From contig JAFATG010000279.1 of the NCBI GenBank assembly GCA_019244055.1, forward strand, positions 1 to 49,885: a stretch of DNA of 49,885 nt. Reading direction: 5' to 3'. Within the stretch, counting starts at the first letter, position 1; the number at the start of each line of letters is the position of its first letter. Positions 34,466-49,885 of the stretch are shown here, piece by piece. Source of the DNA: Acidobacteriaceae bacterium (GTDB lineage Bacteria; Acidobacteriota; Terriglobia; Bryobacterales; Bryobacteraceae). The translations under genes and the position numbers were made by a program. The notes beneath the pieces are model-generated. The model was not told the origin of the DNA. It made no database searches and worked only from the letters and a program-made list of their open reading frames with translations.

Positions 34466-35980
34466 TTGCTGCAGTTTAGTCAAGACAGCGGTTCCCCGAG
34501 TCATCCAGCGTATAGATTAATTGGCGCCACAGAGGGAAACCATGTCGCCTGTAGAAAATACTCTTCCGTTATTCCGGCCATATGTTTTCAGGCGCTCCGG
34601 TATCTTTTTGGTGCGCTCACCTTATTGGCGCCGTGCTTTGGCCAGAATCTGGTGAACCTCGCGACTCAGAGCCGGAACGCAGATTTTGCAAACTTCTCAT
34701 TCACGCGCCCGTGGGCCGTCTCGAGCGCCTCTCCCTCCACCTGTCAGGCCGGGCAAGTGTATTTCAACAGTTCCGCGGCGGCAGGAGCCAATCTCTTTGC
34801 CTGTACCGCCACGAACATCTGGAGCCAGATCGCGGGCTACACCTTTTCCACGCCGCTTTCGCTAAGTGGGACCACCGTCTCACTGCCTGAAGCGAGCGCC
34901 TCGACGGATGGATATCTTTCGCAAGTGGACTGGAACACCTTCAGTTCTAAACAAGCAGCGGGGAGTTATCTGACCGCGCTGACCGGCGATGTGACGGCGT
35001 CCGGACCCGGCTCGGCCACGGCCACTTTGGCGACTGTGAACAGCGCCGCGGGCCAATGCGGCGATTCGACGCACGTATGTCAGATCACCAGCAACGGTAA
35101 AGGTCTCGTGACAAGTCAAACACCGGTCGCGATCGTTACTACCGCAAGCCAGTTGACGGATTTAAGCACCACTGCCACGAGTAGTTCAGCGACGATTGCA
35201 GCGGGCACCTGGGGCGTTGGGAATGCTACCTATTCGGTTTCTGGCGTCACGGTGACGGTGAATTCTCTCACCGTCAGCGGCGCTTCCAACTCCTCTCCGA
35301 TCACCTTGACAGTAAACTCCACAACCGGTCTTCACAACGGTGACACCGTGATGGTTTCAGGAGTGGCCGGGAACACCGCGGCAAACGGCACATGGACTAT
35401 CACAGTAGATAACGGCACCCAGATCGACTTGCAAGGATCAGCTGGAAATGGAGCATACACTAGCGGCGGTGTAGTGGCGGGGTCGGGTAACGGCGTCGCT
35501 TACATCGAGGCAAACGATAGCGGTGATATCAGTATTTATCATTCCTCTTCGGCTGGTCTGATCCTGACCTGCACTGGAACATGCATAACTAATCAGGCTA
35601 CTTCGCCAAGCTTTGACGCAGACGCCTCGCCTATTGCGATTCTTACTATTTCAGCGGGGCAGATTACGGCTGTAAGTGATAAACGACGTTTCATGAGTAA
35701 TCGCGGCATCACGGCAGGCCTCGGCATCGCCGTCACAGATACCGGCGGCTCAGCCAGCATAGCCGTCGATACCACAGTCGCGCGCACTACAGGAGGCAAC
35801 GTCTTCACGGGAAGCAATACGTTCACCGGTGGCTACATTCTCGTACCCGCAGGCTCGCAGCCGACTTGTAACGCCGCAAATGAAGGGTGGTTTTGGTACG
35901 CGAAGGGCAGCAGCACAACAAATGGAAGCCTTCAGATCTGTCAAAACCAGAGCGGGAGCTATCTATGGGTCACTCACTAA
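34466..35980 (+). CDS. Secreted protein with phage-tail-fibre-like modules
   Basis: The 504-residue reading starts at TTG 34466 with a strong AAGGAG site nine bases upstream. A signal-like hydrophobic segment lies at about 43-59 (ALRYLFGALTLLAPCFG), later than usual. The rest is Ser/Thr/Gly/Ala-rich beta sequence with pieces common in phage tail fibres and collar proteins: ASTDGYLSQVDWNTFSSKQ, LTGDVTASGPGSATATLATV, SDKRRFMSNRGITAGLGIAV, GNVFTGSNTFTGGYILVPAG, and a C-terminal CxxxNEGWFWYAKG region. No other phage gene is nearby. Its 3' end overlaps the next gene by 16 bp, so the two are likely coexpressed surface proteins. Function unknown. Confidence 0.7.
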   Translation: MLQFSQDSGSPSHPAYRLIGATEGNHVACRKYSSVIPAICFQALRYLFGALTLLAPCFGQNLVNLATQSRNADFANFSFTRPWAVSSASPSTCQAGQVYFNSSAAAGANLFACTATNIWSQIAGYTFSTPLSLSGTTVSLPEASASTDGYLSQVDWNTFSSKQAAGSYLTALTGDVTASGPGSATATLATVNSAAGQCGDSTHVCQITSNGKGLVTSQTPVAIVTTASQLTDLSTTATSSSATIAAGTWGVGNATYSVSGVTVTVNSLTVSGASNSSPITLTVNSTTGLHNGDTVMVSGVAGNTAANGTWTITVDNGTQIDLQGSAGNGAYTSGGVVAGSGNGVAYIEANDSGDISIYHSSSAGLILTCTGTCITNQATSPSFDADASPIAILTISAGQITAVSDKRRFMSNRGITAGLGIAVTDTGGSASIAVDTTVARTTGGNVFTGSNTFTGGYILVPAGSQPTCNAANEGWFWYAKGSSTTNGSLQICQNQSGSYLWVTH

Positions 35981-38202
35981 GGATCGGGTTCGGGCTATTC
36001 TTCACGGCTCTCTGTTTCGGTCAAGTGACGGTACGCACGATCTGTTCAGCAGGTTGTCAGTACACGCCGACCCAGATCCAGCAAGCGGTGAACAACGCGA
36101 ATCCCGGGGATATTATCACTATCGATCCGGCAACCGGAGCCAGCACCGTCACCGGGCTTGAGCTACCGGCGAAAAACAACCCGAATCACCTATACATTAC
36201 AATCCGGAGCGCGAAGATTTATAATCTGCCAGCCAATACGCGCGTCTCACCTGGAGATCCGAATCTCGCCACGATCTCCTACACTTTTCATGCATACCTG
36301 ACCATGTTTGCGGATTCTACTGCCGGCTATTACCGCTTTGAAGGAATCACGTTCACGATTCTGCAGGGTGACGCTCCCACCAACATGATCCAGTTTGGGC
36401 GAGTGGTGGCAGGCAAGACATTCGATAACCAGCCCTCCCAGCTTCCACACGATATCGATTTCGACCGCTGCGTCTTTTCGGGATGGGCCGGCTTGGCCGG
36501 GCCCTATCGCGCCATAGGAGCCAATATCGGGCGGATGAGCGTCACGAATTCCTATTTCACGGAAATTAAGGGCACCAACGCCGAGGCGCAGGACATCGGA
36601 GCGTGGAACGACATCGGGCCTTTTTACTTTCGCAACAATCATTTCGAAGCTTCCTCTATGGAGACGCTGTTTGGAGGCGCTCAGCCAAGCATGCAAGGGG
36701 TTAGAGCCAAAGATTTGACCTTCATTGGAAACGAATTCTACCGGCCTTGGGCCTGGCGCTTCAGGAAAGGCAGTGGCGCTCCTACTGGTTCGTGCCTCTA
36801 TGATTCTCGGGGCGGGGAATGGTACGCGGACAATTCAGCTGGAGGGAATCTCTGGACCTGCAACTCCTCGAATACGTGGGTTACGGCAACAGAGACTGCA
36901 TTTTTAGCTGTTTATCCGGAAGCCGGACTTAGTTCAGGAACAACAAATCCATCGGGAACCTGCTCGAGCGGCTACTACAAGAACACCGCCGGTCCCTCTT
37001 ACTGGCAATGCGTCAGCAGCGCGTGGGCGTCCATCACCATTGGGCCGTTTATCGCAGCCACTGGACAAGGGTATTACCAAAAGAACCACTTCGAACTTAA
37101 GAATGCGGAGCGGGTTCTGGTTGAAGGAAATTTCCTTCATCAATCGTGGTTACCCACTGCGCTCAATCAGCACGGCGCAGCATTTCTCTTCAATCAAGTT
37201 GACAACGCGAACAACAAGCTCCCGCCTTTCGGCGAGCCATCCGCAGTTATTTCGAATGTGACCGTGCTATACAACCGCGCGGATCAAGATCCCTGGGGCA
37301 TATCGAATGGCGTACTCGGAAATTATTTCCTGCCGATCCATGATGTAAACATCCACGACAACCTGTTCACGAATATCGGCAATGAGCCTCTATCGTTGGG
37401 CGATGCTCAAGTCATCCAGCTAGGAAATCAAGGCAAATACTCATTCGAATACAACACTGTTAGCGGGTCGCAACCGACAGCAGGATTTTCGTCCGATCTG
37501 GCCATCCCCGCTTTCCCGGGCTTACAGCAGATCGAATATGTCGGGAATATCGTTCCATTTAACAAGTCCGGATTCTACGACGAACATGGTCACGGCAGCC
37601 TTTGGGACGCGATTGACAACAACTGGCAGTTGAACCGTGCGTTCACTAAGAACGTAGTTGTCGATCAAGAAGGTACGAATGGTGTACAGAACAACATCTT
37701 CGTACACAGCGACAAGCCACCCTTCAGCGGGCTTGTGCCTTGCGCGTCGTGCGCTAGCCTGAAGTATTTTTCTAACGGCGGCACGAGCGATGTTGGATTC
37801 GTGAACTATTCAGGTGGCGACTACCATTTGAGCGCTTCCAGCCAGTATCAGGGTTGGTGGGCCCATGGTCGCTCAGCCGGCGCCGATGTGGACCAGGTAA
37901 ATTGGTCGACTGCGCAGGCTCTTACAGGCAGCCCGAACGCGTTCCTCGATTTCAAAGTTCGCTCCTTGATGGCGTCACTTACGTCGGCTTCGATCGCCTA
38001 CACATCTTATGACGCCACGGCTTGCACGGTGGCTGTAAGTACAAGGCCGGATTTCGCGAACCCCATCTTCACCGGCACGGATACCGGCGGAGATACGGAC
38101 CGAACTACGTTGATCACCGGCTTGAGCGCGGGCACTCGCTACTTCTACTCGCTGGCTTGCGCTGGACACAACCGATCAGGACAGTTCCTGACAGGCCGAT
38201 AA
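35965..38202 (+). CDS. Large secreted right-handed beta-helix protein
   Basis: From ATG 35965 (GGGAG site seven bases upstream) the protein is 745 residues: signal peptide (about 1-20, GHSLRIGFGLFFTALCFG), a start with TPTQIQQAVNNANPGDIITI as in pectate-lyase-like helices, then many Asn/Phe-rich coils (VTNSYFTEIKG, FYFRNNHFEASSM, LTFIGNEFYRPW, FELKNAERVLVEGNFLHQSW, VNIHDNLFTNIGN, FEYNTVSGS). An insertion at about 275-360 has two Cys/Trp modules. The last 80 residues look like a fibronectin-III-type domain (LTSASIAYTSYDATACTVAV, ITGLSAGTRYFYSLAC). A carbohydrate-binding or lyase role is possible, but no catalytic residues could be assigned. A related partial protein lies at 49023-49885. Confidence 0.8.
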   Translation: MGHSLRIGFGLFFTALCFGQVTVRTICSAGCQYTPTQIQQAVNNANPGDIITIDPATGASTVTGLELPAKNNPNHLYITIRSAKIYNLPANTRVSPGDPNLATISYTFHAYLTMFADSTAGYYRFEGITFTILQGDAPTNMIQFGRVVAGKTFDNQPSQLPHDIDFDRCVFSGWAGLAGPYRAIGANIGRMSVTNSYFTEIKGTNAEAQDIGAWNDIGPFYFRNNHFEASSMETLFGGAQPSMQGVRAKDLTFIGNEFYRPWAWRFRKGSGAPTGSCLYDSRGGEWYADNSAGGNLWTCNSSNTWVTATETAFLAVYPEAGLSSGTTNPSGTCSSGYYKNTAGPSYWQCVSSAWASITIGPFIAATGQGYYQKNHFELKNAERVLVEGNFLHQSWLPTALNQHGAAFLFNQVDNANNKLPPFGEPSAVISNVTVLYNRADQDPWGISNGVLGNYFLPIHDVNIHDNLFTNIGNEPLSLGDAQVIQLGNQGKYSFEYNTVSGSQPTAGFSSDLAIPAFPGLQQIEYVGNIVPFNKSGFYDEHGHGSLWDAIDNNWQLNRAFTKNVVVDQEGTNGVQNNIFVHSDKPPFSGLVPCASCASLKYFSNGGTSDVGFVNYSGGDYHLSASSQYQGWWAHGRSAGADVDQVNWSTAQALTGSPNAFLDFKVRSLMASLTSASIAYTSYDATACTVAVSTRPDFANPIFTGTDTGGDTDRTTLITGLSAGTRYFYSLACAGHNRSGQFLTGR

Positions 38203-38275
38203 ATACAAGCGCCAGGCTCTCCGGCTCAGGAGTGGAGAGCGGAGGGTCTGGCGCTATAAACATCTCCGACATGGT
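38168..38275. repeat. Direct repeat copy A (PEP-CTERM tail sequence)
   Basis: About 108 bp here match 43260-43367 with no gaps and roughly ten mismatches (offset 5092 bp). The first 35 bp are the last codons and stop of the beta-helix gene on the plus strand. On the minus strand the repeat encodes a PEP-CTERM tail. Confidence 0.85.
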
Positions 38276-38277
38276 GG
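38168..38277 (-). pseudogene. PEP-CTERM tail fragment
   Basis: The minus strand encodes SEMFIAPDPPLSTPEPESLA followed by LVFIGLSGTVLIGC, almost the same as the last part of the intact PEP-CTERM protein at 43230-43910. Upstream of it the similarity stops abruptly at about 38277 and no sorting-protein body is present, so it is a fragment. It lies antisense to the end of the beta-helix gene. Confidence 0.75.
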
Positions 38278-38340
38278 CACCTGAACCACCCTTGCGGAGA
38301 GCAAAGGACGGACCTCGTACCAAGCGCCTCTTTTTCGCGC

Positions 38341-38910
38341 TCAGAAGTCCTCCATCGCCCACATGTTGGCGTTATGGGTAAAGTTCATCATTGCCAGGTG
38401 GCGGCCATCCGGGGACGGAATGCCTAAAGATCCGGCTGACTCATTTCCTAGCGTTCCCTGCTTCTCCCATACAGTGTGCATGTTGCCCTTTAAATCGATG
38501 TATAGGCGGACCGCGCTTTCTTCTGTTCGGCTAGCAGCGAACAGCCCTTTCCCATCCGCCGCCCAGTTCAAGGTCTCGAGACTATTCCAACTGGTTGGGG
38601 TGATTTCTAGCGGGGCTCTACCGGCGAAGGCTAAGACGTGAATTGCTCCTTTCCCTGAATGAGCAAGAGCGATCTGTGTTCCATCGGGGGAGAGATCCCA
38701 CATGTAAGCAGTGTCTGGGTTAATGCCGAAGCGGCCCAACTCACGGCCGCGACCGTTCATCGGGTCGAAGGCGGTCAAGACAAGTTGTTTCTCATCTGAG
38801 GTCCGCTCCGCGATCGCACATAGGGCGGCTGGCGACTTGGCGCACCGCAACCCTTCAATGCGCCCTGACAAAACTAGCTGGGGCGCACCCCCAGTCACGG
38901 GAACCCGCAT
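38341..38910 (-). pseudogene. Kinase/TolB-propeller gene, 3' piece
   Basis: This frame (189 residues from its first ATG; family sequence runs upstream to about 39005) holds the last propeller blades: RVPVTGGAPQLVLSG, LSPDGTQIALAH, LNWAADGKGLFAAS and GIPSPDGRHLAMM, ending NMWAMEDF, the usual end of acidobacterial TolB-type propellers on membrane kinases. Just upstream in the same frame are RESAISPDGRWVLYLSRS, so the frame change with the middle piece is near 39001-39008. It is part of one broken gene spanning 38341-41466. Confidence 0.8.
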
Positions 38911-39770
38911 CAGCTGATTCGGTTCTGAAGCGCCATGTTGTTGCGAGCGGCTGAGATAGAGAACCCATCTTCCGTCCGGGCTAATGGCGGACTCACGAGG
39001 TTCTCTAAATCCGACACGACGCTTTCGGCCGTACCCTGGTGCAGTGCCTGCTTGAAAATTCCGGTTGGTCCAGTGCGATTGGACAAGAAAAAAACAGCGC
39101 TGCTATCGGCCGTCCATCCTACGGGCCGTTCGTTTTCTTCGCTTTGCGTAAGACGGCGAGGGGTGGTAATGTGCAGGCGGTCGAGATCCGCGACATACAC
39201 ACTTCGCTGGGTCCAAAATCGTTTGAACATAAGTCGCTGAGCATCAGCAGTCGCGCTCATATTATCCATGCAGAAGCCTGCCCAGTCTGTTAATCGCCGC
39301 GGACGTCCACGAGATTCACCCGTCCTGGAGTCAACCGGCTGTTCCCAGTAGTTGCAGGTATAGAAGTTGATGTCTGGCTCAGCCAACGAGTAAATCATTC
39401 GTCCCGGCAACCAGAGGAAATCCCATAGAAGATTCTTGGGTGGAACTGCGAATACTCGGGTCGGAGAGCCCCCCTTCAAGTCGCGAGTTTCGATGACCAC
39501 CTTGGCGCTGCCCTGCGCGCCCTGAATTTTATGGTAGGAAACCCGTTGGCCACCGGGTGACAAGCGGCAGTTCCAGAATCCGGCATTTTGGCCTGCGTCG
39601 TACAGCTCATGTGCCCGTTCACCATCAGCACCCATAAGCCAGAACTCGCGATCACCATATCTACCCTCGTTCGCGATAAAGGCGATCTCACCTCCATTAG
39701 GCGAGACACCGCAGGCGTAGGCATTATCTCGAAGTTTGCGCGGAGGACCACCCATCACCGAGGCGTCCAA
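38910..39770 (-). pseudogene. Kinase/TolB-propeller gene, middle piece
   Basis: The 286-residue frame carries central propeller blades: VSPNGGEIAFIANEGRYGDR, LMGADGERAHELYDAG, LSPGGQRVSYHKIQG, LMFKRFWTQRSVYVADL and VGWTADSSAVFFLSNRTG. Family sequence ends near 39005, after which the frame reads ENLVSPPLARTEDG, an out-of-frame version of RESAISPDG, and stops. At its start the sequence joins the preceding piece (39755-39982 frame, GQGDSIWT) by loss of one base near 39762-39766 (ACGCC where ACGGCC is expected). Confidence 0.8.
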
Positions 39771-39813
39771 ATGCTATCGCCCTGTCCAGCGACACCCGCG
39801 TTAGCGATGAATC

Positions 39814-41466
39814 TCACGCTATCAGGAAACCATCGAAAACCCCAGTCCACGTGCTTGTTCTTGAGGGTGTGCGGGGCCGGAAGCTTATGCACTTCGCCAG
39901 TGGACATGAGCTTGATGTGAATCCCTTGGTCGTCAGAGTAGGCGCCAGGTATTTGCCGTCGGGAGAAATCGCGCCGCCCCAAACAGGATTGTCAGTCGTG
40001 TTGGTCGTGAGTTGCCACTGGTTTAGCTCAGGCACTGTTCGTACGTGAGAAGACCGGTTCCACAAGATAACACCTGTGACCATGAGCAAGGCAACCATTG
40101 CGGCACCGAGGACACGCCAGAGTTTCGCGCCGCCGACGCTCTCGGAGCGGAAGGCGTCGGTTTCCCTTTTCAAATCGGCGGCCATCTCCGCTGCGGACTG
40201 GTATCGAGACTCACGGTCTTTGACAAGAGTTTTATCGATGATCCGTCCCAAGTTGTACGACACATCTCGATTTAGCTCCCGAACTGGCTGTGGTGCTTCG
40301 TTCAGGATGGCGGCGTGGACTTCAGCCGCAGTTTCTCCGGCAAACGCGCGTTTGCCCGCCGCCATTTCGTAGAGCACGAGACCCAAGGAAAACAGGTCCG
40401 TGCGGGCGTCCAACTTCTCGCCTCGCACTTGCTCTGGCGACATATAACCCGCCGTTCCAATCGCCACTCCCGTGCGCGTCAGATTGACGTGCGGTTCCGG
40501 GTTCGGCTGGCGTTCGCAGCCGACGTGCGCAGCCAGCTCCAAAGGTTCGGACTCCTGCAATTTGGCCAAGCCGAAATCCAGGATCTTAGCTTGTCCGCTG
40601 GTTGTCACAAAAATATTCGCCGGTTTGATGTCGCGATGGATGATGCCCTTCTTGTGTGCCGCCTCGAGCCCCTCGGCAATTTGAACAGCAATGTCAAGCA
40701 GTGTCTCTGTCCTGAGGAACTTTCTCTGACCATCGGTTCCAGCGGAGGGCTGCCCTACCGCAGAAATCAACTCGCCCAGGGGCTGCCCGTCGAGTAGTTC
40801 CATCGCGATAAAGAGTCGACTCTCGTATTCGTCCACTTCGTAAATGGTGCAGATGTTGGGATGGTTCAGTGCTGACGCAGCTCGGGCCTCCCGTTCGAAG
40901 CGCTCGATTGCAGCGTCGTCACTCGCCAACTCCTCCGGCAGGAACTTCAGGGCAACACGGCGCCCCAATTTGATGTCCTCGGCTTTGTAGACAACTTCCA
41001 TGCCTCCGCCGCCCAGCATCTCTAGCACACGGTAGTGGGAGACTCTCTTGCCAATCAGGTCGCGCGTGGCCGATTGCAGTCGCGGCGCTTGATCTTCAGG
41101 AGCCGCGACCGCAGGCCCGACGGGGCTAGCCTCGACGAACTCTACGGCCACCAGCAGCCGGTAACCGCGCCTGGCGACTGTCTCGACGTACTTCGGATTC
41201 TCAGCGGAGTCTCCCAAGACTTTCCGGAGCTTTTTGATCGCGGTGTGAATGCTGTGGTCGAACTCCACCACCGTGTCGTTCGGCCAGACCTTCTTTTTGA
41301 TCTCGGCCCTGGTGACCACTTCTCCCCGATGTTCCAGTAGCATCACAAGGATCTGGAAGGGTTGTTCCTGAAGCAGAACCTTTCGCATCCCTTTGCGAAG
41401 TTCTCCGGCCTTGAGGTTCAATTCGAATGCCCCGAATCGCGCTCGATCTGGGGGTGACACTTCCAT
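39814..41466 (-). pseudogene. Winged-helix/Ser-Thr kinase/TolB-propeller gene, 5' piece
   Basis: From ATG 41466 this frame encodes an OmpR/PhoB-type winged helix (about 10-105: RFGAFELNLKAGELRKG, TVARRGYRLL), a Hanks-type kinase domain (about 145-410: VALKFLP, IIHRDIKPANIFV, ILDFGLAK, GTAGYMSPEQVRGE), a membrane helix (WRVLGAAMVALLMVTGVIL) and the first propeller turn ISPDGKYLA. It then shifts frame near 39941-39948 and ends in out-of-frame sequence. The short frame 39755-39982 continues the propeller (YSDDQGIHIKLMSTGEVHKL). The glycine loop reads GGGGMEVVYKA, where Gly is expected instead of Glu. This architecture is typical of Acidobacteriota. At least three frameshifts break the gene. A longer start at 41541 is less likely. 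Confidence 0.82.
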
Positions 41467-41670
41467 CAGGCCACACCGTGGAGCGAGTTTACCACCATTT
41501 GTCGCAACTCTTGCGAACTCAATTGGCTTCGCATTGAACAACTTAGCTGTTCAGCGATAGTTCATCGGTAGATCAGCGCCGGTGCATTCCATCGCTCAAC
41601 CACATCGCTGCACAATCCGCAGCGAAGGTGGCTCTTGAAGGCAATCGAGGGCTAAAGAGAAGGAGCATTT

Positions 41671-42801
41671 ATGAACTTAAAAAGCTCGAGGTGTATCATC
41701 GCGACGGCGTTCGTCGCAGTAGCAATTCCGGCACAACTGGCTGCTCAGAAAAAACAGCAGCAAGTGCACCACAAATACAAACTCTTTGATTTGGGAGCGT
41801 TCGGCGGTCCGGGAAGTCAATTTTCGGATGGCAATCCGCCCTATATCAAATTGATGAATAATCGCGGGATCGCCGTGGGCGCAGCAGATAGGTCTACTCC
41901 CGATCCGTATTTTCCAAACTGTCTTACGGACTGCTTTGTGGCTCTCGGCTTCCAATTCCAAAACGGTGCCGTGACAAAATTGGGCGCGCTTCCGGGCGTT
42001 AACACCAGCTTTCCCTTCGCCATAAATGAACGCGACGTAGTCATCGGCGTTTCGGAGAACGGTACCGTTGATCCTCTGACCGGCTTTCCTGAACTCGATC
42101 CCGTCCGTTGGGTGAAAGGTACAATCCATAGTCTTGGAACACTCGGCGGAACCCAGGGAGTAGCGCTCGATATCAATGATCGCGGTCAAGTTGTCGGGGG
42201 AGCCCTGAATGCGATCCCAGATCCTTTCGCCGCCCAATTTGACTCTGCCTCGATCTTTCTCTTTCCCGGAACAACAGAAGCTCGTGGATTTCTCTGGCAG
42301 GATGGCGTAATGCAAGACTTGGGCAGCTTGGGCGGTCCAGATAGTGTTGCCTTGTACGTGAATGAGCGCGGCGAAGTGGCAGGACAATCCTTTCTGAGCT
42401 TTACCCCGAACCCAACGACGGGAATTCCAACGCAGGATCCGTTTCTCTGGCTTCCATGCGACCGTGATTATTCGGACAACGATTACAACAGCGACCGTGA
42501 AAGTGGCATTGGAAAAAATGGCAGAATGCTGGATCTCGGTACACTCGGAGGCACATTCGGCTTAGTTGCTGGCCTCAACAACCGCGGCCAGGTGATCGGT
42601 CAATCGAACCTAGCGGGAGACCACACGCACTATCCCTTTCTTTGGGAACGCGGCCATATGAAAGACTTAGGCACGCTCGGCGGTGATTTCGGATATGCGA
42701 CCTGGCTTAATGAAGATGGAGAAGTCGTGGGAGTTGCGAGCCTTCCGATTCCTTGCCCGGGCTGCGAGCAAGGTCCGCAGGTTTATCACGGGTTTTTCTG
42801 A
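41671..42801 (+). pseudogene. HAF-repeat extracellular protein, N-terminal part (ends at in-frame TGA)
   Basis: The 376-residue product has a signal peptide (MNLKSSRCIIATAFVAVAIP) and six HAF-type repeats, each with a DLGTLGG-like turn (DLGAFGG, KLGALPG, SLGTLGG, DLGSLGG, DLGTLGG, DLGTLGG) followed by an IN-RGQVVG-like segment and an FLW-like element. The start has GAAGGAG five bases upstream. It ends YHGFF TGA, where the repeat pattern (FLWQDG, FLWERG) demands Trp. The next codons KQGVMTDLGTL continue the repeat in the same frame, so TGA at 42799-42801 looks like a TGG-to-TGA change. HAF proteins have no assigned function. Confidence 0.85.
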
Positions 42802-42813
42802 AAGCAGGGAGTT

Positions 42814-43242
42814 ATGACTGATCTCGGAACCCTGGATAAATGCAGCATAACGTTTGGGATCAATTCGAAGAGTCAGATCGTAGGCTCCTCCGGATTGTGC
42901 GGCATTGCCAAACACGCATTCCTTTCTGAAAGTGGTGGCCCTATCATCGATCTCAATTCGCGGGCGGTAGGCGGTTCCGACTTGCAGTTGACACAGGCTA
43001 TTTACATCGATGATCGTGGCGAGATCGCCGGAAATGGCGTAGCTACCAACGGCGACGAGCACGCTTACGTGCTGATCCCTTGCGACCAGGATCACCCCGG
43101 GGTTGAGGGCTGTGAGTACGACACGATCCGCATTCCAACTGTGCCACCAAATATTGATTCTGCGACCGACGTTGGGACTCCGGAGACTTCGCCACGAGCT
43201 CGCAATTACAAACAGCCAAGCGCCGCCGTTCACCTGCCTTGA
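42814..43242 (+). pseudogene. HAF-repeat protein, C-terminal part (same frame, after the TGA)
   Basis: The 142-residue reading from ATG 42814 continues the HAF protein without a frame change: VMTDLGTLDKCSITFGINS then QIVGSSGLCG, FLSESGGPIIDLNS and the ending AYVLIPCDQDHPGVEGCEYD, a common end of HAF proteins (compare LPCDRDYSDNDYNSD in the first part). Alone it has no signal peptide and would not be exported. With the first part the full gene is 523 codons, 41671-43242. Its end overlaps the convergent PEP-CTERM gene by 13 bp. Confidence 0.8.
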
Positions 43243-43910
43243 TTGCGCCGGAATGAGGTACAAGCGATCAGGGCAGTTCCTGACAAACCGATAAATACAA
43301 GCGCCAGACTCTCCGGCTCAGGAGTGGAGAGAGGGGGGTCCGGCGCTATAAACATCTCCGCCATAGTGTATTGCTGATCGGTGGAGTTGTTTTCAAAATC
43401 CGTCCAAACGACTATCTGGCTGAAAGAAACTGGAGAAGTAATCCCAAAAAACCCATCGCCTGAATAGTACGCGGACTGAATGCCATCCGCGCCAGTCTGC
43501 AAGGGTACCCATTGGTTGTTGGAGCCGTTTTGAATAAGGGCCAAGCTGCCGGCAAAGCCCTCAAAATCCAAGATTGCGCCGAATCCGAACGTTGGTTTGC
43601 TGAAGGTCCAGGTAGTCGTCGCTCCGATTCCGTTGCCGAAGTAGCCGTTCAAGTTGCCGCACTGCCCGACGCAGTCGGACCATATGGTGCCGGCAATCCG
43701 TCCATTGCTCGTTGTGACGGACACTACTGGCGAGGAAATTCCGGCAGAACCAAACGTAATGGGATCAGTTTCTGACACGCCTTGGATCGTCAATACCTGA
43801 CGCTCCCAAGTGTTGAAATCCGTGAATTCTTCGTCGAAAACGCCTCCGAAAGACGGAAACGTGAATACAAAAGCGAACGCAAACAGACAGCGCATCCTCC
43901 GTGTGCGCAT
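43230..43910 (-). CDS. PEP-CTERM sorted surface protein
   Basis: From ATG 43910 (AAGGAGG site eight to nine bases upstream) the protein is 226 residues: signal peptide (about 1-22, RCLFAFAFVFTFPSFGG), a beta-rich body (ITFGSAGISSPVVSVTTSNG, WTFSKPTFGFGAILDFEGFA, ISFSQ-type strands) and a C-terminal sorting signal at about 195-226: TPEPESLALVFIGLSG, the rest of a membrane helix, and a basic tail SFRRNQGR. PEP-CTERM proteins are cut and anchored or released by an exosortase/archaeosortase-type EpsH, often with exopolysaccharide; no exosortase is in the window. An ATG at 43952 is possible but less well supported. Confidence 0.85.
   Translation of the reverse strand: MRTRRMRCLFAFAFVFTFPSFGGVFDEEFTDFNTWERQVLTIQGVSETDPITFGSAGISSPVVSVTTSNGRIAGTIWSDCVGQCGNLNGYFGNGIGATTTWTFSKPTFGFGAILDFEGFAGSLALIQNGSNNQWVPLQTGADGIQSAYYSGDGFFGITSPVSFSQIVVWTDFENNSTDQQYTMAEMFIAPDPPLSTPEPESLALVFIGLSGTALIACTSFRRNQGR
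43260..43367. repeat. Direct repeat copy B (PEP-CTERM tail sequence)
   Basis: This is the second copy of the repeat at 38168-38275, inside the 3' part of the intact PEP-CTERM gene. The two copies are in the same orientation and bracket 4984 bp that hold the broken kinase and HAF genes. Confidence 0.85.
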
Positions 43911-44067
43911 AAATGCCACCCTCCTTGGCAATGTGATGACAGTTTCGTTCAATTCGTATCGGCACAGAATACTGCAACCCCACCCTGAGTACTGGAAAAC
44001 AGGAATACAGCCGTACTATTCCCTCTAGGAATATTCACTCGCGCGTCTGTGGAATTGAGCGATCGTT

Positions 44068-45717
44068 TCACTTAGCGGAAGTCAAAGACGTGTTTTGTCC
44101 GGATGTCAAAACCGTCCAACCATCGAGCTCCGGCACTCTCACTTCGTGATTGAAATTCGGAAGATAGTTGAGCGCCGCACGCTGCTGCGCATCGCCGAAA
44201 GGTGGAGGATACGCTATCATCGTAAACTGCTTAGGAATGTCGGCTAAGTAGTGAGAGTCTGAGAGTCCGAATCCAGCTCGCTTGCGTTCGTCGACAAAGT
44301 AATCGAAGTGATAAGCGGCATGTTCCGTGAGGATGGATGCCAGCGGATTCCACGGAAAATATACCTGGTTAGGATGCTGCTCCATATACTTCACGGCTAC
44401 TGCTTGCGGGTTGTTTCCAATATGGCGAGCAATACGAGGCAGTGATTCTATGGCGCTGGTGGATTGAGACATGTAAGTTATCGTGAGCGCGCATGATATT
44501 ACGACAACGACACCGCTCAACTGGCGCCAAGATGTTGCTAATTTAACAAGACCCAGCGTAATTGAAAGCAGTAGGAAGTAGCCGGTCAGAGCCATTGCAC
44601 TATCTTCTCCTCCCGTCTTAATCCGATTTGCAACGGACAGCGGCAGCATAAATACTGCAATGAAGAGAAATATCATCCACCTATGCTCGTTCATCCAGGC
44701 GCGCAGGCCAGAGCGGGGGGAAATAATGGCGATCAGACCAAGGACGATGAGCAAGGCCGAGAGAAGAGCGAGGTGCTCGGATACATAGTGCTGAGTCATC
44801 CAAAAAGCTGTCACTATCCGATCGCTGGCCGTCTCGGCGGTTCGGCATGCAAGACCTTCCTGAAAGCAACTCACGTATTGCCATGGGTGATGAGCCGGAA
44901 ATTCAATCGTATTGAACACGAGTGCGCGGAACGGAAATACCAGAAGCGCTATAGCGGCTGTGCCGAGCACGAGAAGTGTTAATCGCAACAGAAACCAAAG
45001 AGTTTCGATCAGCCCGTCTGCTATCAGCATGAATAATGGAATCGCAAGAAATGCCGGCGCGGCCGTTTGCTTGGACCATTCCGCGAGGACGAGACAGGCT
45101 GCCGCAACCCAGAGAGCGGCTGCGCTGGGCTTCTGAGAACGGTAGATGACGCCCGCCGAAATGGCCAGTAGCCCCAAGACAAGCGCGTCGCCGCGAACAG
45201 TGAAGATCGCATAGGTAATTGGAAAGAGGTTTATTGCGATGACCGAAAACGTAACTATTCCCGCAACTTTCCAAAAGTTCCTATCCGGAACGGAAAGCGG
45301 CAACTGCGTATGGACCCAAGAGGCAGGAATTAGCGCAGCGGCAGCTCCCATTAGAGAGGCAACAATCAGCGCCATTGTGGGGCCGGGTAGAAATGTCGCA
45401 GGTAAGAAATAAAGAAAGTAAAGAGGGGAATAGTTAGTGCCAAGTAACGGGCCGCTCTGTTGGTCATAGTAGAGCGGATGGCCTTGCCTGACCCAGTACG
45501 CCACAGCGAGACGAGCGGCGGCCCAACTCGGAAACACAGAGTAGTACAGAGCGCTCCGTGCAACACACACCAAGGTGACGCCAGCGGCAATCGGAAGGAC
45601 GATATACGCCAGACGGCGGGCCGGATCTTCGCCTCTTGATCTCACGAATAGGCGAACGGCAACGGAAATAGATATTCCGAATATGACTGCAATCAGTGCT
45701 AACGTGACGGAGCTCAT
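44068..45717 (-). CDS. Polytopic membrane protein, GT-C/GT87-like
   Basis: The 549-residue protein has roughly ten to twelve membrane helices. An early periplasmic loop reads YWVRQGHPLYYDQQSGPLLG followed by TNYSPLYFLYFLPATFL, the pattern seen in GT-C and DUF2029-type lipid-linked sugar transferases. The last 120 residues are soluble (HIGNNPQAVAVKYMEQHPNQ, SDSHYLADIPKQFTMIAYPP) and could hold substrate. No catalytic Asp pair could be assigned with certainty. It lies after a GT4 glycosyltransferase and a sugar-type oxidoreductase, which supports a polysaccharide or glycan role. Confidence 0.7.
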   Translation of the reverse strand: MSSVTLALIAVIFGISISVAVRLFVRSRGEDPARRLAYIVLPIAAGVTLVCVARSALYYSVFPSWAAARLAVAYWVRQGHPLYYDQQSGPLLGTNYSPLYFLYFLPATFLPGPTMALIVASLMGAAAALIPASWVHTQLPLSVPDRNFWKVAGIVTFSVIAINLFPITYAIFTVRGDALVLGLLAISAGVIYRSQKPSAAALWVAAACLVLAEWSKQTAAPAFLAIPLFMLIADGLIETLWFLLRLTLLVLGTAAIALLVFPFRALVFNTIEFPAHHPWQYVSCFQEGLACRTAETASDRIVTAFWMTQHYVSEHLALLSALLIVLGLIAIISPRSGLRAWMNEHRWMIFLFIAVFMLPLSVANRIKTGGEDSAMALTGYFLLLSITLGLVKLATSWRQLSGVVVVISCALTITYMSQSTSAIESLPRIARHIGNNPQAVAVKYMEQHPNQVYFPWNPLASILTEHAAYHFDYFVDERKRAGFGLSDSHYLADIPKQFTMIAYPPPFGDAQQRAALNYLPNFNHEVRVPELDGWTVLTSGQNTSLTSAK

Positions 45718-45744: not shown

Positions 45745-46782
45745 CTAGCGTTGTAGGTCAGAATAGAGCGCAAATACTGCTTCCAGGTTTGTTTCTCCGG
45801 TCTGCTGCCGAGTATTCTTTTTCATGCCCGTACTAATCACGCGGCGAGTCTCTTCCTCGAGCGCGTCTAGATTTGAGATTGGAACGAGCCGCACACCCTG
45901 GGGCCGCATGCCGTTGTCCGTAGCAATAACCGGCGTTCCGAGGTGCAGAGCCTCACGCACTGATATTGCATCTCCGTCATAGAGTGTTGTGCGGAGAAAA
46001 ATGTGACACTGTGCGATCGAGCGGAGAGTTGCCGAGTGCGGCACATCGCCGCACAGCAAGACACGCGAGGCGTACTCCTTGCTGGCGATGAGTGCACGCA
46101 GCGCGCTTTCCCGGCTTCCAGATCCGATAATGGCGAGCCCGGCCTGATGAAAATCCCTGAGCAGTCGTCCCAACAGTTCAACTTGTATCGGCAGATCGTA
46201 TTCATCCTCGAGCAAGCCTACGGTCAACAGCGCGGGCGAGCGAGCAGCGAAAAAGGCGGCAAGATCTGTAGGAAGGGGTGTGTCTGTAATCCGGGCTGGC
46301 ATTGCATGGGGTTTGATAGAGTAAACCCGATCATTGGCCACTCCAAAACGACGAAACAGATCGACGATTTCTTCGTTCACTGCGATGATCCGATCGAATC
46401 TCCGGAGAACAAAGCCGGCCAATGTTCGAGGTGAAGCGGAGCGGCCTTCGGGAGAGGTCGCGTAGCCGCCAGAGTGAAAGGTCAGAACTGCCTTGCGGCG
46501 TGGCATCCAGCAGCAGAGCAAGGAGAGAGCCAGCAGGCGGAACGTAAGGTTCCCCCCGATGTGCAGATGCAAGATGTCGTAGGGCAGCTTCGCAATCAGC
46601 CACAGTGTTTCCGCTGCATTTTTTGGGAAATAGACCTCATCGCCGTTCCTTGAGCGGTGCCGCGTAAGATTGATCACACCGCATGCGGCTCCATGGCAAC
46701 GCAGATAGTGCCGGATCGCCATGAGATTCGATTGCACTCCGCCATGCGGAGGCGGATAGGGTCCGAGCTGTAGAACCCGCAT
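45745..46782 (-). CDS. Family 4 glycosyltransferase
   Basis: The 345-residue GT-B protein has the N-terminal start LQLGPYPPPHGGVQSNLMAI, the acceptor-domain strand DILHLHIGGN, RFDRIIAVNEEIVDLFRRFG and the donor-domain segments LLTVGLLEDEYDLPIQVELL, AGLAIIGSGSRESALRALI and YDGDAISVREALHLGTPVIA, the last being the EX7E-like nucleotide-sugar site. It transfers a sugar from a nucleotide donor to a lipid or glycan acceptor in the cytoplasm. Its ATG shares one base with the upstream gene's stop (TGATG), so it is coupled to the oxidoreductase. Confidence 0.9.
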   Translation of the reverse strand: MRVLQLGPYPPPHGGVQSNLMAIRHYLRCHGAACGVINLTRHRSRNGDEVYFPKNAAETLWLIAKLPYDILHLHIGGNLTFRLLALSLLCCWMPRRKAVLTFHSGGYATSPEGRSASPRTLAGFVLRRFDRIIAVNEEIVDLFRRFGVANDRVYSIKPHAMPARITDTPLPTDLAAFFAARSPALLTVGLLEDEYDLPIQVELLGRLLRDFHQAGLAIIGSGSRESALRALIASKEYASRVLLCGDVPHSATLRSIAQCHIFLRTTLYDGDAISVREALHLGTPVIATDNGMRPQGVRLVPISNLDALEEETRRVISTGMKKNTRQQTGETNLEAVFALYSDLQR

Positions 46783-48935
46783 CAGCCTGGTAAGTCAAAG
46801 GACATCGGCGCAAGATGCCTTGCCGAATCAAGCATACGCAAGCACCCCATCGTAGCGCGCGAGCCATCGCGAACCGTTACTGCTGGAGTTCGGCCTTCTC
46901 GTATGCTGTCGAAGAAGTCCTTCAACTGCTCTTCGTAGCCCTTGGCCGCCCAGAACCTTGATCTGTTTCGGCGCATGTTTCCTCGAAGCGAGAGCTTCTT
47001 GAAATCTTCCGTCGCGGCGCCAATCCCTTGTGCGAATACTTCAAGCCGCTCGCCGGCAGAAGTCCGGCTTCCGATCGTGGAATAGGAAAGATTAGCGACA
47101 GAGCCATCGGCAAAGCGAAAGATCGCAACCAGATTATTTTCACCGATCGGTTCCTGGTTTCCGCGCGGCAGCGAATACGCCGATACCGATATGGGCTCAG
47201 AACCGGTGAGCCAATAAAGCAGGTCGACAAAATGGCACGCCTCCCCGAGAATCGCGCCGCCAAGAGCCGGATCAGCCATCCAGTAGGACCCGCTGATGCC
47301 AGGCGAATTGACTCTGCACGTGATGACCGCAGGTCCGGTGCGCTTTTGCAACTGCCGGCGGACCGCAACATAGTAAGGCGCAAAACGGCGATTAAATCCC
47401 ACCGTTAGAACTAGCCTCGACTCCGCGACTGCTCGTTCTAGCGCAATGCATTCATCCTCCGTCAGAGCCATGGGCTTTTCGACGAATACATGCTTTCCGG
47501 AGCTTAGCGCGTCGAGAGCCTGTTGAGCGTGATGTTGATTTCTGGTTGCAATCAAGACGGCGTCGATTTCCGGGTCGCGCAGGATTTCGTCGTAATTCGA
47601 GGCGCAGTAATCAGCTTTGAATCGGACGGCATAACTCTTGCCGCGTGCACCGCTGGCGGAGTAAACGGCGCGCAGTCCGACATTTTGAAACTTACGGATA
47701 TCCGGCAAATGCACCCAGCGGGCGAGGTTACCGGCACCCACCAGCGCGATCTTCAATTGTTCGGCTTTGGTACATCGCGGCAGATCGATTCGATGAACGG
47801 GCCTTGACACTCCGGTGAGACTTTCAGCAGCCGGGTATTGGAGGACCACGGCAAGGCTCTGCGAGGCCCGGTCCAGAATCGTCCTGTAAGCGGCGGCGGC
47901 GTCAGACAGGGTGAAGCGGTGCGTAATTAACTGGCTAACGTCAACTGCCTTGCGGTCGAGGAGCCGAAGGAACTCTTCCATGTTGCGGTTTTCCGTCCAG
48001 CGGACGTATGGCAGCGGATAATCGTGGCCATTGCGCTCGTACTGCGGGTCATAACTCCCTGGACCATAGGCGCGAGACATGAAGAGTTGAATTTCCTTCA
48101 GATACATATCGTGCCACGGAAAATTCATCTCGACCGCGCCCAGCACGACGATTCGGCCGCGATCACGACAGATAGAAAGCGCTTGGAGGCAGGGGGCTGC
48201 CGATTTTGCCGCCGCTGCAACAATCACGCAGTCTGCCCCGCGGCCTACCGTTGCAGCCTTGACTCCCTCGAGGGCGCCGTCCCCGCCGAGGACACCCACA
48301 TCTGCACCGAGTTTGCGGGCCAGATCGGTGCGATCCTGCTTCAGATCGATCGCCACGACAACGCCCCCTTGCACGCGCACGAGTTGCGATACCAATTGAC
48401 CAACGAGGCCTTGGCCGATCACCGCGACTGTTTCGCCGATTCCGATCTGAGCAATTCGAACTGCGTTCATCGCAATGCTGCCGAGCGTTGCGAAGCAGGC
48501 TTGGTCAAGCGGCAGATCTGGAGGGACGCGTGCAGCCAATTGTCTGCCGGCGAGGATCATCTCTCCGTGCCCGGTGCCTTCGCCTCCATACGCCACCCGC
48601 TCACCCAACTCGAGGTCTTTCACCGTGGGATGCTTATCAACGATTACTCCTGCTCCGGAATAACCCAGAACTGCGTATTCACTGAACTTAGCCCGTACCT
48701 CCGCCATCGTGCGCACCGGGCCCATCGTCTTCGCCGCATCCACTATCTTTCGGATATGCGACGGGTTCTCCGATACCTGTTTCAGAACGCCTTCCTGATG
48801 GATGCTGGCGCTTTCGGTGCCGCTACTGATCAAGGAGAAGTGCGGACACACGATCACGTGGTGAGGCGTGACAAGTGGGTCGGGTAATTCCTCCACAACT
48901 ATGTCCTTGAGACCTTTGCGCACGACTTGTTTCAT
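46782..48935 (-). CDS. Bi-domain oxidoreductase (MDR dehydrogenase fused to Gfo/Idh/MocA)
   Basis: The 717-residue protein is a fusion. Residues 1 to about 370 form a zinc-type medium-chain dehydrogenase fold (HFSLISSGTESASIHQ, LGYSGAGVIVDK, GERVAYGGEGTGHGEMI, VAVIGQGLVGQLVSQLV). Residues about 395-717 form a Gfo/Idh/MocA domain (LKIALVGAGNLARWVHLPDI, AVLIATRNQHHAQQALDAL, KHVFVEKPMALTEDE, GGAILGEACHFVDLLYWLTG). Such fusions are known from exopolysaccharide and heparinase-linked gene clusters and probably oxidise and reduce a nucleotide sugar or glycan intermediate. The start is ATG 48935. Confidence 0.88.
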   Translation of the reverse strand: MKQVVRKGLKDIVVEELPDPLVTPHHVIVCPHFSLISSGTESASIHQEGVLKQVSENPSHIRKIVDAAKTMGPVRTMAEVRAKFSEYAVLGYSGAGVIVDKHPTVKDLELGERVAYGGEGTGHGEMILAGRQLAARVPPDLPLDQACFATLGSIAMNAVRIAQIGIGETVAVIGQGLVGQLVSQLVRVQGGVVVAIDLKQDRTDLARKLGADVGVLGGDGALEGVKAATVGRGADCVIVAAAAKSAAPCLQALSICRDRGRIVVLGAVEMNFPWHDMYLKEIQLFMSRAYGPGSYDPQYERNGHDYPLPYVRWTENRNMEEFLRLLDRKAVDVSQLITHRFTLSDAAAAYRTILDRASQSLAVVLQYPAAESLTGVSRPVHRIDLPRCTKAEQLKIALVGAGNLARWVHLPDIRKFQNVGLRAVYSASGARGKSYAVRFKADYCASNYDEILRDPEIDAVLIATRNQHHAQQALDALSSGKHVFVEKPMALTEDECIALERAVAESRLVLTVGFNRRFAPYYVAVRRQLQKRTGPAVITCRVNSPGISGSYWMADPALGGAILGEACHFVDLLYWLTGSEPISVSAYSLPRGNQEPIGENNLVAIFRFADGSVANLSYSTIGSRTSAGERLEVFAQGIGAATEDFKKLSLRGNMRRNRSRFWAAKGYEEQLKDFFDSIREGRTPAVTVRDGSRATMGCLRMLDSARHLAPMSFDLPG

Positions 48936-49022: not shown

Positions 49023-49885
49023 TCAACGCGCTTTGAAGCCGTCCTCGGCGGCATCTTCGGCCGTCAGAACCCCCTTCACGACGTTTGCTGTCTTGCGGTG
49101 CAGCGTATCGAAGTCTACACCGGGATCTGTTCCGTTCGTACCCTTACCTTTAAATTTACTGGAAGGGGCCAGGGAGTAAACGTGCTCAGAGGGATCAGTA
49201 AAGCCGACGTCTTCTATAGAACCTGGATAGAAGTTATGGGCCGGATAGTCGCGTGGATTCGCTCCGGCGATGACGTTGTTTCTAAACACCACATCGTATA
49301 AGTAGTATTCGATTGCGCGGTTTCCTGACCCTTTAGCATCGCCGAAAACGCCGTACTTATTGTGCGGACTGATATTGTTCGTGAACACTATGCTCGAGCT
49401 TGGCTTTCCGGCCATTACCATCACCATGCCACTTTGGAGCATCGTGTTGTGATCGATGGTGATGCGTTCGGCGCCGCTCAGCACCTGAACAGAAGCTCCA
49501 TTATCTGGCAGGTCCTCGAGCAGATTGTTCGAGATTTGTATGTCGCTTGCTTGGCCCGCAATCGGCGGGTTCATTTTGCAGGGTTGTCTGGCATCATCCC
49601 GTCCAAGTATGTTAATGCCTTGATGCGAACCCCGCAGGATGTTGTAACTGAAATTCACATCCTTTACCACGGCCCACGGCATATCTCCGGCTTCACAGGT
49701 GCGAACGGTAAACAGGACGCCGAAACCGTTTTGCGCTCCTTCCCAATTATTCTCGAGAATGTTGTATCTGATGGTGACTCGCTGCGCATCCTTGAGCTCA
49801 AAGAGGTTCTTAACGCGCCAGACCTTTTTCCAGATTAGCGGTTTGCGAAGATAGTTATACAATACCTCGATATCTGACGGAACAA
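49023..49885 (-). CDS. Right-handed beta-helix protein, C-terminal part (5' end outside window)
   Basis: The frame is open to the window edge, so the N-terminus is missing; about 287 residues are visible. The sequence shows beta-helix coils rich in Asn: VKNLFELKDAQRVTIRYNIL, FSYNILRGSHQGINILGRDD, IQISNNLLEDLPDNG, ITIDHNTMLQSGMVMVMAG, IVFTNNISPHNKYGVFGD and VVFRNNVIAGANP. The element LFELKDAQRVTI parallels FELKNAERVLVEGN in the large beta-helix protein at 35965-38202, so the two are paralogous. This copy ends in a charged helical tail (VKGVLTAEDAAEDGFKAR) and lacks the fibronectin-like end. Probably secreted; function unknown. Confidence 0.8.
   Translation of the reverse strand, partial: VPSDIEVLYNYLRKPLIWKKVWRVKNLFELKDAQRVTIRYNILENNWEGAQNGFGVLFTVRTCEAGDMPWAVVKDVNFSYNILRGSHQGINILGRDDARQPCKMNPPIAGQASDIQISNNLLEDLPDNGASVQVLSGAERITIDHNTMLQSGMVMVMAGKPSSSIVFTNNISPHNKYGVFGDAKGSGNRAIEYYLYDVVFRNNVIAGANPRDYPAHNFYPGSIEDVGFTDPSEHVYSLAPSSKFKGKGTNGTDPGVDFDTLHRKTANVVKGVLTAEDAAEDGFKAR

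Follow-up and report, generated by a model that had tools for sequence, protein, structure and literature searches.

A diverged direct repeat carrying the ends of two genes brackets a decayed gene pair between a beta-helix gene and a PEP-CTERM gene in an Acidobacteriaceae bacterium

The window, that is, the whole 49,885-nt stretch of Acidobacteriaceae DNA analysed here, carries two direct repeats, at 38168-38276 (copy A) and 43260-43368 (copy B), which bracket a block of decayed genes. Direct alignment of the copies, 109 bp each, is ungapped and gives 99 of 109 identical positions; the initial annotation had described gapless 108-bp repeats with about ten mismatches, and apart from one additional base this description stands, with exactly 10 mismatches counted. 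The right edge of the copies is sharp, and the longest exact run that they have in common is 23 bp. A longer repeat, with its left edge at 38157/43243 and a 6-bp gap, was convincing at first, but 1022 of 3000 random pairs scored equally, and the extension is not significant. G+C content is 0.558 in the block and 0.547 and 0.551 in its flanks.

The repeat had been taken for a PEP-CTERM tail, and this applies to most of its length: in both copies the portion to the right of the first 35 bp encodes a PEP motif and a hydrophobic stretch on the minus strand. The left third, by contrast, is the 3' end of a beta-helix gene. A shared origin of the copies had been made to depend on an identity higher than that between any two PEP-CTERM tails, and the difference is large. 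Specifically, the 6.2-Mb draft genome, G000 (372 contigs, 96.7% complete, 3.8% contamination), contains 21 PEP-CTERM matches, two of which are copies A and B, and the best ungapped 109-mers at the loci of the 19 others reach 43-48/109, which is background. The runner-up in the window, on either strand, reaches 50/109, and a search of the draft genome at E<=0.001 returned just copies A and B, with no third copy. Chance likeness of two tails is thus ruled out, and because the other PEP-CTERM loci give background identity only, the repeat is a specific duplication and not a family motif.

To the left of copy A, the beta-helix gene is intact, as previously annotated. It lies on the plus strand at 35965-38202, within an open ORF (35887-38202) that has homologues; its start is read here as the ATG at 35965, and its stop codon falls inside copy A. 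The name is that of the initial annotation: a profile scan matched no beta-helix model and gave weak C-terminal hits below cut-off (e.g., Pur_ac_phosph_N at residues 670-737), and the C-terminal domain is read here as FN3-like. A separate gene, at 49023-49862 by the window's end, has a beta-helix match (PF13229). In the frame of the beta-helix gene, the left 35 bp of both repeat copies read RSGQFLT(G/N)R*; the frame ends in ACAGHNRSGQFLTGR at copy A and in DCAGMRYKRSGQFLTNR at copy B, with the portion from (N/K)RSGQ onward lying within the repeat. The same C-terminal domain occurs at five loci among the matches listed. At the four whose 3' flanks were read (L063-L066), the proteins end in GEMITR*, GQFRTR*, GQFRTR*, and GQFKTH*, with stops at most one codon from that of the beta-helix gene; the fifth (L016) aligns with GEFRT, an alignment that was not read to the stop. 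Judged from these protein ends, the end at 38202 is a natural one, common to relatives. Since relatives end in a similar motif, copy B (at 43260-43294) contains the final codons of a beta-helix gene but none of the rest of that gene. This remnant is short, and likeness past the 35 bp is not significant. The opposite possibility, that PEP-CTERM DNA replaced the original end of the beta-helix gene, was judged less likely, given that relatives keep the G-[QE]-[FM]-x-T end and, where read, stop within one codon of it. At the same four loci, the ORF lists place the beta-helix homologue convergent with the next gene, the spacing of the two ends ranging from an 11-bp overlap to a 30-bp gap.

To the right of copy B, the PEP-CTERM gene (43230-43952, minus strand) is also open, as claimed, and takes its final nine residues from DNA to the left of the copy. 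The criteria for such proteins (PMC1569441) are a PEP motif, a hydrophobic stretch of ~14 residues, and basic C-terminal residues. All three are present in the 43230-43952 protein, the basic end being RRNQGR; its TIGR02595 score, 16.3 bits, is just over the cut-off of 16, and its Pfam PF07589 score, 17.0, is below the cut-off of 20.7. The genome also encodes exosortase matches (PF09721) above cut-off on contigs C133 (220 bits) and C155 (42 bits). At copy A, a remnant of a PEP-CTERM gene (38114-38276, minus strand; part of an 82-aa ORF at 38114-38362) retains the PEP motif, the hydrophobic stretch, and a basic tail, all antisense inside the beta-helix gene, and scored 20.3 bits for TIGR02595 in one search and 18.8 bits in another. 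The older PEP-CTERM tail, as represented by copy A, may have extended, opposite the beta-helix codons, as far as the stop at 38114, which would give an 89-bp overlap. Farther right of the PEP-CTERM gene are glycosyltransferase and oxidoreductase genes (45745-48935), possibly for polysaccharide synthesis.

In copy A, a strong hairpin (38208-38255) begins 6 nt past the beta-helix stop. Folded as DNA, it reaches -19 kcal/mol in copy A (z -5.9; matched by 0/200 shuffles) and -11.8 kcal/mol in copy B (z -3.0; 2/200), and recodings synonymous for the protein fold as well as the real sequence in 0 of 2000 cases for copy A and 0.2% for copy B. For the whole 120- and 126-nt stretches, z is -3.0 for A and -0.4 for B, where 69/200 shuffles fold equally well. 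The strength of the hairpin is not unique, as its windows, at -36.3 kcal/mol, rank 8th-11th among 67-nt windows taken in 5-nt steps. Foldings of -27 to -33 kcal/mol, energies calculated without a control, also follow the stop in four relatives. A terminator scan of 37900-43700 predicted 8 sites where 6.2 were expected and was therefore uninformative. Two of these sites, both minus-strand, overlap the hairpin in each copy, with TTGTATTT coming directly after them. Inspection of the sequence found no T run after the hairpin on the beta-helix side.

The ten differences between the copies change ten codons of the PEP-CTERM frame, seven synonymously and three by conservative replacement (S/A, V/A, and G/A). 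Random change would give ~6.6 replacements, and three or fewer would be expected with P of about 0.014, a pattern that would follow if the PEP-CTERM tail had stayed under selection. Four of the differences lie within the hairpin, and all four are synonymous for the PEP-CTERM protein; it is the B hairpin that is weaker. On the simplest interpretation, B is the copy that changed, constrained by the PEP-CTERM protein, and the hairpin was preserved in A; ten differences cannot fix this direction and are likewise too few for dating.

Between the copies lies a 4.97-kb block (38277-43242) that consists of a divergent pair of genes, both decayed. The first, on the minus strand at 38341-41541, is a regulator pseudogene with winged-helix (Trans_reg_C), protein kinase, and weak propeller matches in Pfam, and homologues align to its last codons. 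Relative to open homologues it passes through frames -3, -2, -1, and -3, with changes near 39.94, 39.76, and 39.0 kb, which bears out the three frameshifts of the initial annotation. All three frame changes appear at about the same places against each of four single-frame homologues (L068, L124, L128, and L129), and the last of them also against L125, which is cut by a contig end. The second, a HAF-repeat gene on the plus strand (41671-43242), has a single in-frame stop, at codon 377 of 523, again in agreement with the annotation. When the stop is read as X, homologues align across it, most clearly L127 (33% over residues 19-479). Both genes are pseudogenes, in that homologues align across the frame breaks and the stop.

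The pair is also divergent in two other genomes of the genus, G006 (L124, on G006:C35) and G014 (L126, on G014:C285, where the HAF gene is cut by a contig end), although a Pfam scan of their regulators shows no kinase domain. Because the arrangement recurs in these genomes, the block is viewed as a natural two-gene unit, now decayed. Counting this genome, the divergent pair occurs in three members of the genus; the regulator may control the HAF gene. Two related arrangements were also seen. At L129 (G000:C359, 404-3651), another such regulator and a PEP-CTERM gene are immediate convergent neighbours, with frame ends at 2695 and 2704. At L130 (G007:C21, 1587-6375), a HAF gene stands beside three tandem integrase-family genes, a trio that we take to resemble a recombinase-in-trio element.

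Outside the window, the search for the locus covered 17 genus-level genomes, 237 from the family, and 100 mixed relatives, together with two scans of genome contigs that required exact short peptides. None of the genomes searched contained an orthologous locus with the beta-helix/PEP-CTERM pair, either empty or filled, and neither contig scan found a relative. The individual proteins are sparsely represented. Of the 237 family genomes, 15 match the beta-helix protein at E<=1e-10 (27-37% identity apart from its own genome, which is included), as do 6 of the 17 genus genomes at E<=0.001, again including its own. Matches to the PEP-CTERM protein are fewer (2/237 at E<=1e-4 and 4/100 in the wider set at E<=0.001, own genome included; the others at 22-31%). 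The oxidoreductase gene (46782-48935) has relatives of 63-65% identity in three genomes of the same genus, and in the DNA downstream of these (~17, 10, and 4 kb) neither the gene at 44068-45717 nor any of the PEP-CTERM, beta-helix, regulator, and HAF genes had a match at E<=1e-4.

Taken as a whole, the repeat is best read, from its double coding content, as the stretch in which two convergent genes once overlapped, now present twice. The beta-helix and PEP-CTERM genes, today five kilobases apart, were probably convergent neighbours with overlapping 3' ends, such that the PEP-CTERM sorting tail was encoded opposite the last beta-helix codons and the hairpin. The divergent regulator/HAF pair would then have entered the junction on a 4.97-kb insert, with about 109 bp duplicated on both sides; repair of a staggered break is one way in which such a target duplication could have arisen. 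The left copy would have retained the end of the beta-helix gene; the right copy would have preserved the PEP-CTERM gene, which acquired a short basic tail in the process. Both flanking genes would thus have stayed usable and the event been tolerated, the inserted genes decaying later through frameshifts and a stop. The initial annotation had proposed an insertion or duplication that split a convergent beta-helix/PEP-CTERM pair, with subsequent decay of the inner genes: the split junction and the decay hold up, and the single insertion enters only by inference, as the genomes searched offered no orthologous site, occupied or unoccupied.

That the block arrived by one insertion with target duplication at the convergent junction is given about an even chance. 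It is favoured in that it explains both block ends in one event, where a tandem duplication with deletions needs more. On the other side, a duplication of 109 bp far exceeds the usual target duplications of transposons. No relative with an unoccupied site turned up in the genomes searched, nor any insertion machinery in the block, and tandem duplication plus deletions yields the same pattern. The search for machinery covered the larger ORFs of the block, and neither the five gene pieces nor ten further ORFs in other frames encode a recombinase or transposase. Of the 15 inverted pairs of at least 12 nt in 38150-43400, none lies at the inner edges of the block; one, a 14-nt pair (86%; 38166-38179 with 43374-43387), is at the outer edges of the two copies.

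Tandem duplication is a possible, if doubtful, alternative, in which the junction, the PEP-CTERM gene, and the regulator/HAF pair were duplicated together, after which most of the first PEP-CTERM copy was deleted and the second regulator/HAF copy lost. Tandem duplications occur commonly and do not depend on insertion machinery, and one here would directly yield the joint between the HAF end and the beta-helix remnant to the left of copy B. The mostly synonymous differences in the PEP-CTERM frame also fit two tails that were both used for a while. At least three events are needed by the present count, however, and the block shows no trace of the body of another beta-helix or PEP-CTERM gene: a search of it for either flanking gene found nothing at E<0.01 except 30 bp of PEP-CTERM tail at the right end. 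Moreover, what follows on the right is an unassigned gene, a glycosyltransferase, and an oxidoreductase rather than a second regulator/HAF pair. A search for a second, source copy of the block elsewhere in the genome, in which 40 of 50 candidates were scored, gave nothing for the HAF gene and no more than isolated 66-80% matches for the kinase, winged-helix, and propeller parts.

It is unlikely that the block is what remains of a small integrative element whose site-specific recombinase directed entry at the beta-helix 3' end, the repeats being attachment sites. Direct repeats and a restored gene 3' end typify such islands, and the HAF gene of G007 adjoins integrase-family genes, yet no recombinase or transposase is encoded in the block ORFs scanned and the draft genome has two copies only. 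Less probable still is recombination between two formerly separate, paralogous beta-helix/PEP-CTERM loci, placing a different interval between the junction copies: the 21 PEP-CTERM matches and a second, partial beta-helix homologue on contig C300 would accommodate it, but no third junction copy was found in the DNA of the draft genome and, besides the gene and its remnant, the genome has no homologue of this PEP-CTERM protein at the thresholds used. Finally, an assembly artefact is the least credible explanation, since, for all the fragmentation and contamination of the draft, G+C is even across the region and a 23-bp exact run is too short to mislead usual assembly word lengths.

The locus resembles several known arrangements in part. 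Like the PEP-CTERM/EpsH (exosortase) signal, copy B ends an intact gene with a PEP motif, a hydrophobic stretch, and a basic end, in a genome with exosortase matches; unlike it, the tail here is antisense to a C-terminus of the neighbour's type and lies over a strong hairpin. Convergent overlapping gene pairs are tail-to-tail genes with common 3' DNA, whereas here the common DNA occurs in two copies and neither gene overlaps the other any more. As in islands that restore gene 3' ends, direct repeats holding a gene 3' end flank extra genes, but no recombinase was found in the block, the repeats have diverged to 91%, and two gene 3' ends lie in the repeat.

Returning to the insertion reading, it is tempting, though decidedly tentative, to suggest that the 109-bp segment once had three uses, as the C-terminus of a surface protein, as the transcription-ending hairpin of that protein's gene, and, on the other strand, as the sorting signal of a different secreted protein, and that only an insertion duplicating the segment was tolerable. 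The overlapped genes would thereby have been freed, one copy keeping the hairpin and the other the sorting tail. The locus itself is an old, decayed rearrangement, a fairly ordinary relic for which no wider functional consequence is seen. It carries a warning that a repeat resembling a family motif, such as a PEP-CTERM tail, can be a shared gene junction and, if the proposed history is true, it would provide a clear, small case of gene overlap limiting the entry of DNA and of junction duplication lifting that limit.
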